The position numbers and the translations under genes were made by a program. From contig JAPPFW010000061.1 in assembly GCA_028821575.1 (NCBI GenBank), positions 1 through 64,000 of the forward strand: a stretch of DNA of 64,000 nt, written 5' to 3'. The notes under the pieces were generated by a model that made no database searches, was not told the origin of the DNA, and saw only the letters and a program-made list of their open reading frames with translations. Each line of letters starts with the position of its first letter. Position 1 is the first letter of the stretch. This DNA is from a bacterium. GTDB lineage: Bacteria; Actinomycetota; Acidimicrobiia; Spongiisociales; Spongiisociaceae. Positions 6,212-8,983 of this stretch are shown here, piece after piece.

Positions 6212-6580
6212 CTACGCGTCGGATGCCGGCGACTGCTGCAGGGTTCGCACCAGATGTTCCGTCTGACGGATCCATCGCTCCAACTCGGCGGCGGTGGGAC
6301 CGAGTTCGTAGTGATGGTGATGGCAGGCCCTGCTCAACGACGCCCATGCCGATCGCGCATCGGCTACGAGTCCGGCGTCCGTGATCATCAGCCCGAGGCA
6401 GGTGAGTTGCGTGGCGCGGCTAGCACTCGCCACACCCGGGTGGATTGCCAGCCAAAGCCGGTCCAACGCGTCCTCGAGAACCTGGCGAGTCAGCAGCGCT
6501 GCGGCGCGCGGCCAGACACCCTCCGACCCTTCCTGTCGCTCGATCAGGGAGCGGGCATGGTCGAGCAGGTCAGCGGTCAC
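6212..6580 (-). CDS. Small helical HEPN-like protein, partner of the upstream ATPase
   Basis: A 122-residue, probably all-helical protein. The C-terminal half has RACHHHHYELGPTAAELERW (residues about 84-103), whose Arg-x4-His spacing matches the R-x4-6-H motif of HEPN-domain ribonucleases; the N-terminal WPRAAALLTRQVLEDALDRLW helix also looks HEPN-like. It starts with GTG inside the ATPase stop codon (GTGA), so it is translationally coupled to the ATPase. HEPN proteins are often RNA-cutting effectors controlled by an ATPase or antitoxin. The assignment is from motif and context only. No specific family was recognised. Confidence 0.55.
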   Translation of the reverse strand: MTADLLDHARSLIERQEGSEGVWPRAAALLTRQVLEDALDRLWLAIHPGVASASRATQLTCLGLMITDAGLVADARSAWASLSRACHHHHYELGPTAAELERWIRQTEHLVRTLQQSPASDA

Positions 6581-8983
6581 AGTCGACGGAGCCGCTCGGC
6601 CAGCCCTTGGCAGTCGTTTATCAGGCCCTTCAGGGAGCCATCGAACGGTTCATGGGTGCCCCGGTTCGCATCCCAGAAGGCATCTGCGAAGCGCCCTTTC
6701 CACTTGCCGGTCATGCGACGGGAAATGTCGCCTCCCGCCCGGCCGGCATCGTCAAAGAGCGCTAGCGACGCCTTCTGCTTCAACGTCCGCGTTCGTTCCA
6801 GAAGATCATCCACCGCGTTGTGAGGCTCACCCCTTCCGAGACGGCGCCGGCGCACCGCTTCGATGCAGGCCGCCTCCAGGCCTTCGCGGCACATGCCAGG
6901 AATCACCCTCCACGCCACTTGCTGCGGCAGATCGGAGTCCAGGACAACAGATCGAGCATCCATGAAGTACTGGATGACCGGATCCCTCTTCTCCCGGACC
7001 TCCACCCCTCGATCCGGGACGGCGTGTCACCTGCTTGCAGGTGTGTTCGATGCGGAGGCGCCGGAGTGATTCGGGCAAGCGGTCGTCGTGCGTGAACACG
7101 ACCAGTTGGCGGTCTGCGGCGATAGCAGCGAAGACCCGGGCCAGACCGTCAACCCGGGCTGGGTCCATGGACTGCACGGGGTCGTCGATCACGAGAAACC
7201 GGAACGGGTTTGCCGGCAACGTGGCGCGAGGGAAGAACAGCGAAAGGGCAAGGCAGCTGATCTCCCCCTGGCTGGCCACCGCAAGGCCCTGCGCCCCTGC
7301 CCCATCTACATCGACGGGTAGGTCGACATGGCGCCGGTTGCGGGTACCCGCCAGCTGCACGGACCTCAGATCGACGTTGCTCTGGAGTCGGAGTTGTTCC
7401 CAGAGTCGCAAGGCCTTGGACTCGATGGGCCGCCACCGAGCAGCCCGAAGGGACACTGACACACCCTTGAGTGCTTCCTCGGCTCTCTTGATCTGCCGCA
7501 CGACATCTCGGGATGCAACGGCCGAGCGAGCCCTCTGCTCCCACGCCATCAAGATGGGGAGGATGGAACGCCACTGCTCTTCCTGCCGCGAGTAGCTCTC
7601 CTCCGCGAGTGCAGCGACGCGAGCCACCTCCTCAGCCAGCTCTCCGTGGAGCCCCAGCAGGTGGTCGGACATCTCGCCCGGATCGCCGGGCAACTCGCCC
7701 CATTGCGTCCAGAGTCCGCGTGCGGCTGCCGTGTCGACCGTAGGAGAGTCCGGAATCAGGGGAACGGCAACCAGAGACCGCGCTCCGTCTACGGCACGTC
7801 GCAGGCGTAGCGTCGCCGACCTGTACCGGTCCGCCCTCTCACGCAGTAGTCCCAATTGCCTCTCGGTCGCGGCACGCCACTCGGCATCCAGGATTCCGAC
7901 TCCGCACACGGGGCACTGGTTGCGGTCGTGGGCCTGATGATGGTCTAGGGCTATCGTGAGAAGCCTCACCAACCGCTCGTCCTCTTCGATGCCTGTACCT
8001 TCCAACGCCGCTAGCTCCGATACGGCACTATGCAACTCGTCAGCAGCCTCCAGGATCACCTCTTCATCGGGCACCCGGAGCGACAGCAGCTCGGAGAGTG
8101 CGTCGCGGCCGGGATCCGATGCCGTCCCCAATCGGACCAAGGCTTCGAGATCCCAGACCCTCTTGCTGAGCAGCGAACCGGCCCGGTCGGCCCGGTCGTC
8201 GTCGAGGACCGCGAGCGCAGGAAGGATGGACTCCTTCAGGTCCTGCCTGACTTGCCTGTCGAACCTCTCCCGCCTGAGGCGGGTGCCGGCGAGCGCCTTA
8301 AGCGCAACATCTATGGACTCGAGACCGAGGACCGCGGTGAGAGTGTCGAACAGCTCTGTGGGTCTGGCGCCGATCATCCCGAGTTCGTTGTAGGACAGGA
8401 GCGGCCGGTACAAGTCCAGGGGCCCGTCCCATCCGATCCCGGCCAGGTCTTTTCTCTTCTCCCCGTGGTGCTGGGCGGTTCCGGCACCCTCTTCGAGAGT
8501 CGAATCAGGGTTCCACGATCTCGCTACAGTCGTGGATCCCACTTTGCCCTCGACCTGGAAGCGGGCCGAGATGCTGGGAGATAGCCCATGGTGGAGGTTT
8601 CTCCAGCCTTCCTTCCAAGGCCCGCTCCGGTCCTCCCACCGGAGGGCATTGCCGGTGAGCAGCACCTCGAGGGCCTCCGCAAAGCTGGATTTCCCGGAAC
8701 CGTTCCGTCCGACCACCACGGTAAGGCCGGGACCCGGCGGGAGCTCCAGCTTCACCTCTGGACCGATGCCCCTAAAGCCCGACACCGTGATGTCTTGGAG
8801 AAAGACGGAGGAGGCCGTTTCCTGCTCACCGTTCGCTCGGTCGGATGCGTAGACCTCGGATTCTCCCGCGATCACCCGCTCCACAGCATCTTCCCCCTGC
8901 AGGGAGGCCATGACCAGATCGAGCGTGCGGTCATCCACGTCCAGTTCGGCGAGTTCCGCCAGTATCTCCTGATACAACGTCAT
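6577..8983 (-). pseudogene. Rad50/RecF-like AAA ATPase, one-base frameshift near the C-terminus
   Basis: A DNA-repair-type ABC ATPase of about 800 residues when the frame is repaired. Walker A is VVVGRNGSGKSSFAEAL near 90, a central coiled coil contains a CPVCG zinc-hook motif near 365, the ABC signature region is ASQGEISCLALSLFF and Walker B is FRFLVIDDPVQSMDP, followed by the switch His in FTHDDRL. After TRRPGS the frame breaks at 7005-7008, where the coding strand has GGGG; removing one G restores the continuation VEVREKRDPVIQYF down to the stop at 6577. The ATG at 8983 has GGAGG upstream. The shift may be real or a homopolymer error. Confidence 0.75.

Follow-up and report, generated by a model that had tools for sequence, protein, structure and literature searches.

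A Rad50-like zinc-hook ATPase gene and an overlapping gene for a small protein of predicted HEPN fold as a possible two-gene defence cassette

Two overlapping genes and a frameshift in the window

The stretch of DNA that we analysed (64,000 nucleotides, called the window here) carries a gene for a Rad50/SMC-like ABC ATPase, followed on the same strand by a short gene for a small helical protein (Table 1). The first-pass annotation had picked out the motifs GRNGSGKSS, CPVCG and IDDPVQSMDP in the ATPase and a 122-residue helical protein containing RACHHHHYE. All of these are present at the locus, and the AlphaFold (AF2) model of the small protein is all-helical. The ATPase matches SMC_N, AAA_21 and AAA_23 in Pfam, and a PDB search gave Rad50 as its closest family. 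Its matches to the PADLOC PDC-S06 and Lamassu LmuB models were partial ones to the ATPase region, with none over the full length.

Table 1. Features of the ATPase gene and the small gene in the window
Feature	Position	Strand	Remarks
Rad50/SMC-like zinc-hook ABC ATPase, in-frame part	6827..8983	-	718 aa, of which ~660 aa genuine, plus frameshifted tail
Walker A, GRNGSGKSS	8684..8710	-	Invariant or nearly so across 44 relatives
Zinc hook, CPVCG (CxxC)	7901..7915	-	C357, P358 and C360 invariant across 44 relatives
ABC signature-like SQGE	7262..7273	-	S571-E574 invariant (44 relatives)
Walker B/D-loop, IDDPVQSMDP	7160..7189	-	DDP form, as in RloC-type ATPases L095-L097
Frameshift site, AGGGGT	7004..7009	-	One base more than G022, G021 and G105 (DNA alignment)
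ATPase C-terminal helical domain, out of frame here	6577..7005	-	142 aa; from alignment and AF2
Conserved R-x3-E in ATPase tail (CREGLEA)	6871-6891	-	
Conserved G-x-H in ATPase tail (NRGTH)	6652-6666	-	
Small protein, predicted HEPN fold	6212..6580	-	122 aa; start overlaps ATPase stop by GTGA
R32-x3-E36, helix 2 of small protein	6473..6487	-	Each residue kept in 67/69
H87-x-H89-x-Y91 of small protein	6308..6322	-	69/69, 65/69 and 65/69

The two genes had been described as overlapping by GTGA, with the ATPase read as one frame over 6577-8983. The overlap stands but the single frame does not. The ATPase frame that starts at 8983 ends in about 60 nonsense residues, the correct sequence being lost after about residue 655, and the last ~142 residues are encoded by ORF 6577-7005, which is in another frame. 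It is the stop of this out-of-frame piece (TGA, 6577) that is overlapped by the GTG start of the small gene at 6580. Because DNA alignment with three relatives showed a single extra G in the AGGGGT run of the window, and because the ATPase ORF is unbroken in about 80 relatives, at about 800 aa, we regard the ATPase gene of the window as frameshifted. A programmed frameshift was ruled out since the frame is intact in the relatives and the window merely has an extra base. The extra base is either a mutation or a draft-assembly error, and if it is real the cassette of this genome is probably non-functional.

The displaced C-terminal domain was modelled by AF2 as helical (pLDDT 94). Across the 44 relatives, R699 and E703 in this tail are invariant, H777 is present in 43, and G775-x-H777 is nearly invariant.

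To define relatives of the ATPase, 84,980 species genomes were scanned and the best 80 were taken; their alignment ends at about residue 655, where the window goes out of frame. Identity to the ATPase is 36-45% in these best 80; for its in-frame part, relatives at about 40-63% identity were found. We compared 85 loci, drawn from the scan, from plasmid records and from genomes of the order to which the window belongs. The two genes are a co-inherited, conserved unit. The small gene lies at +1 after the ATPase gene in 81 of the 85 loci, and in 82 it begins within the last codons of the ATPase gene (-16 to -1 nt), with an overlap of -4 nt in 71, -16 nt in nine and -1 nt in two. Pairwise identities of the ATPases and of the small proteins are correlated across 80 loci (r = 0.93), and no permutation of 1000 exceeded 0.13. 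Among 397 genomes of the phylum, all profile matches to the ATPase tail except a marginal one co-occur in the genome with a match to the small protein. Some strains have two divergent copies of the pair (Micromonospora musae, L027 and L051). The small gene is probably translationally coupled to the ATPase gene. No other gene family is found at a fixed position beside the pair in the 85 loci; thus, no Mre11/SbcD-type partner recurs.

Fold and conserved residues of the small protein

The small protein matched no NCBIfam or PADLOC model and no credible Pfam family, and none of 69 members of its family gave a match to a Pfam HEPN profile at E 0.5. A PDB sequence search with the family returned chance matches only. 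We built an AF2 model from 67 relatives (pLDDT 92, pTM 0.85), which has helices at residues 2-14, 23-46, 55-65, 69-86 and 97-116. Foldseek matched this model to 2q00 (TM 0.69, probability 1.00) and 2hsb (TM 0.71), and further top PDB matches were the HEPN structures 1o3u and 1wwp and HepT (6m6w/6m6u). Non-HEPN bundles among the matches mostly had TM 0.3-0.4. Weak E-values are usual for small helical bundles, and because those against the HEPN structures were 0.09-1, the call rests on TM-score, probability and the consistency of the matches. The model supports a four-helix HEPN fold. The HEPN identity proposed in the first-pass annotation thus holds at the level of predicted fold but not at the level of sequence.

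That proposal had taken the R-x4-H motif within RACHHHHYE as its clue. The arginine of this motif, R84, is kept in just 38 of the 69 family members, and we dropped the canonical R-x4-H as the definition of the active site. The Rx4-6H pattern of HEPN proteins is incomplete in this family, although H87 and H89 are retained, and it is H87, H89 and Y91 that are conserved instead (Table 1). R25 is kept as often as R32 and E36 (67/69), and E92 in 63/69. In HEPN proteins helix 2 carries an acidic residue close to the site (PMC3710099), and E36 lies in the helix spanning residues 23-46. Families that have the histidine without the canonical arginine exist (PMC3710099), among them PaREP1 (2q00), the best Foldseek match of the model. 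The small protein is probably an RNA-cutting partner of the ATPase.

Distribution, insertion site and gene neighbourhood

Whether the pair might be a universally conserved housekeeping locus had been raised in the first-pass annotation as a point to check. Within the window's order the small gene was present in 6 of 138 genomes, which shows that the pair is not a housekeeping locus, and the pair occurs in about 20 of 397 genomes of the phylum. Degraded copies are also seen in the same order, one with a truncated or frameshifted ATPase gene (L013, G134) and one where the small gene alone is left as a remnant with an in-frame stop (L014, G107).

The junction between the acyltransferase gene and an aminotransferase-like gene is a variable insertion site. 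The acyltransferase gene that flanks the pair is present in 13 of the 15 genomes of the window's family. In sister genomes that lack the pair (such as G030, G027 and G034), an aminotransferase-like gene lies 0.1-0.8 kb from it, and its counterpart in G022 and G021 is about 8-10 kb off, with the pair in between. The same junction also holds a gene for an Mrr-like type IV restriction enzyme in G021 and for an NsnB/AriA-like ATPase in G022. The earlier remark that the adjoining genes reveal no defence island is correct for the window but not for these relatives. The best reading of the distribution is that the pair is a horizontally mobile, sporadic cassette, and this reading is part of the overall explanation given below. 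Carriage by phages found no support: phage records held no relatives, viral contigs gave only short matches of the P-loop or Walker B type, and a structure search of BFVD returned nothing.

Proximity to known defence genes, which the first-pass annotation had put forward for checking, was evident in the relatives. The type I restriction-modification (R-M) protein HsdM is encoded within the fetched flanks of 35 of the 85 loci and of 17 of 45 non-redundant loci. As a comparison, five of six genomes of the order contain 1-15 N6_Mtase matches per 2.6-4.9 Mb, from which we estimate that a random 16-kb stretch would hold one in a few per cent of cases at most. HsdR, GmrSD, DUF6119, kinase-DEAD and DUF4011-helicase-REase genes are also found beside relatives. 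At E<=1e-15, 102 neighbour proteins match 161 PADLOC families, including Wadjet JetABC, DarTG, AbiEii, Shango and type IV REase, as compared to five families matched by 50 other window proteins, a contrast that is only indicative because the controls derive from a single other genome. The genomic context in relatives supports an association of the pair with defence. The matches of the control proteins at this threshold include DolB/PDC-M37B, CARF_ADA and HEC-09, models that may represent generic enzyme domains.

Several other genes accompany the pair at particular loci. On plasmids of Streptomyces sp. M92 (L008) and S. anthocyanicus (L007) and in genome G328 (L157), the small gene is directly followed by a gene for a HelR/HelD-like ATPase of about 1185 aa; in G328 a clear small gene stands beside it without a Rad50-like ATPase gene. 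A three-gene Streptomyces variant is possible. A HelR-like helicase as a core third gene was rejected, being present in a few Streptomyces loci only. An RNase H-fold gene lies directly upstream of the ATPase gene in most of 13 Micromonosporaceae loci (e.g. L077:6708-7580). In Nocardia farcinica NCTC11134 (L009, 10801-14382) the pair adjoins rpoB2, the gene for a rifamycin-insensitive RNA polymerase beta, which is not the case in the other loci searched.

Comparison with known systems and competing explanations

The likeliest functional parallel is with RloC and PrrC. The anti-phage nuclease RloC cuts tRNA anticodons (PMC2610378), and activation of its ACNase requires linear DNA and its ATPase (PMC3874168). 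In both RloC and the pair the ABC ATPase resembles Rad50/SbcC, has a Walker B of the DDP type and carries a zinc hook as a CxxC insert. RloC and PrrC also have a HEPN nuclease module with an R-x3-E...H triad, to which the predicted fold of the small protein corresponds. Their published motif is Arg-X3-Glu-X36-52-His (PMC2610378), and R32-x3-E36-x50-H87 of the small protein falls within this spacing, with the three residues kept in 67/69, 67/69 and 69/69 members. By contrast, the E-to-H spacing in the ATPase tail is 73, outside this range.

A link to type I R-M, which guards PrrC, is the rule for PrrC and rare for RloC, and the pair shares it. The pair differs from both proteins in that their ACNase domain is fused C-terminally, whereas in the compared loci it corresponds to a separate, overlapping gene; another difference is an additional helical domain at the C-terminus of its ATPase, where a further R-x3-E and a G-x-H lie more widely spaced. 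Using RloC reference loci taken from plasmid records, we found that the small protein matched the RloC C-domain (hhalign, P 0.027) no better than unrelated controls, and membership of RloC by profile was rejected. An early match between the ATPase tail and RloC (P 9e-4) was inflated by the shared end of the ATPase and was gone after trimming. Because profile homology did not exceed the controls, we treat RloC as what the pair may work like and not as its family.

Other systems share single elements with the pair. PaREP1 (2q00, HEPN-T), AF0298 (2hsb) and HepT (6m6w) share the predicted fold of the small protein. PaREP1-type proteins likewise keep the H and lose the R, and some members of the small family have an end resembling RX4HXY, as in HepT. 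Unlike HEPN-T and HepT, the pair has a Rad50-like ATPase in place of a nucleotidyltransferase partner, and there is no match at the sequence level. PADLOC PDC-S06, LmuB (Lamassu), Mad3 and PtuA (Septu) are SMC/RecF-type ATPase domains in defence, but the matches of our ATPase to them are partial (about 50-80 bits) and its partner is neither LmuA nor PtuB nor anything similar. The HEPN effector of the type IX retron also lacks the canonical motif and cuts tRNA, with distant H and R residues forming the site (PMC13405049); it differs in acting in a complex with RT and msDNA without an ATPase sensor. We found no description of the pair among the open-licence papers searched.

We weighed several explanations for this two-gene unit, which is conserved but sporadic, has ATPase motifs and near-invariant R/E/H/H/Y residues, and often lies close to type I R-M genes. 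The one that we prefer, and to which we give about an even chance, is a mobile two-gene defence cassette acting in the manner of RloC, but with the nuclease as a separate protein. By analogy with RloC and PrrC, a dimer of the Rad50-like zinc-hook ATPase would sense an abnormal state of the DNA, the candidate triggers being broken or linear DNA or the loss of R-M control. The small HEPN-fold subunit would be held inactive within a putative complex with the ATPase, and firing of the ATPase would license it to cut host RNA, most likely tRNA, so that growth would stop before a phage or plasmid multiplies. If this is right, the pair would be an unnamed and widespread two-gene immune system of Micromonosporaceae, Nocardia, Streptomyces, acidobacteria and others, of which current defence annotation libraries miss the HEPN side and barely touch the ATPase side. 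The separate nuclease would allow subunit mixing to address the old question of how a tRNase is turned on by a Rad50-type DNA sensor, and the link with type I R-M would show the PrrC principle, in which restriction is guarded, at work in a further lineage.

The conserved R699, E703 and H777 of the ATPase tail raise the idea that the tail is itself a HEPN-like half that shares one RNase site with the small protein as a composite heterodimer. Among 37 profile comparisons, the one between small protein and tail ranked first in either direction (P 0.003-0.006), although the match spans about 45-49 columns and may reflect helical bias. The HEPN structures 1wol, HepT, 1wwp and 3jrt recur among the Foldseek matches of the tail, but these are weak (TM 0.25-0.44, E >0.8). 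We consider such a heterodimer rather unlikely, and are equally doubtful about its fuller form, an undescribed family in which the two halves would come together as a composite site only once the ATPase dimer has engaged aberrant DNA.

HEPN domains without the motif can be non-catalytic (PMC3710099), and with Rx4-6H incomplete in its family the small protein could be an RNA- or protein-binding regulator or an antitoxin, leaving the ATPase or its tail as the effector. Yet H87 is invariant and R32, E36, H89 and Y91 are each more than 90% kept in a family so diverged that mean column identity is about 30%, a pattern typical of an active site, and we judge a non-nuclease role to be unlikely. The first-pass annotation had named a damage-response system beside a defence module. 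A DNA repair or end-processing module of the SbcC/Rad50 type with no role in immunity would fit the zinc hook and the Rad50 structures as closest PDB relatives. The sporadic occurrence within the order, the lack of a recurring Mre11/SbcD-type partner and the defence genes beside relatives make this very unlikely, whereas the defence module is favoured by its distribution and by the type I R-M genes and PADLOC families around the relatives.
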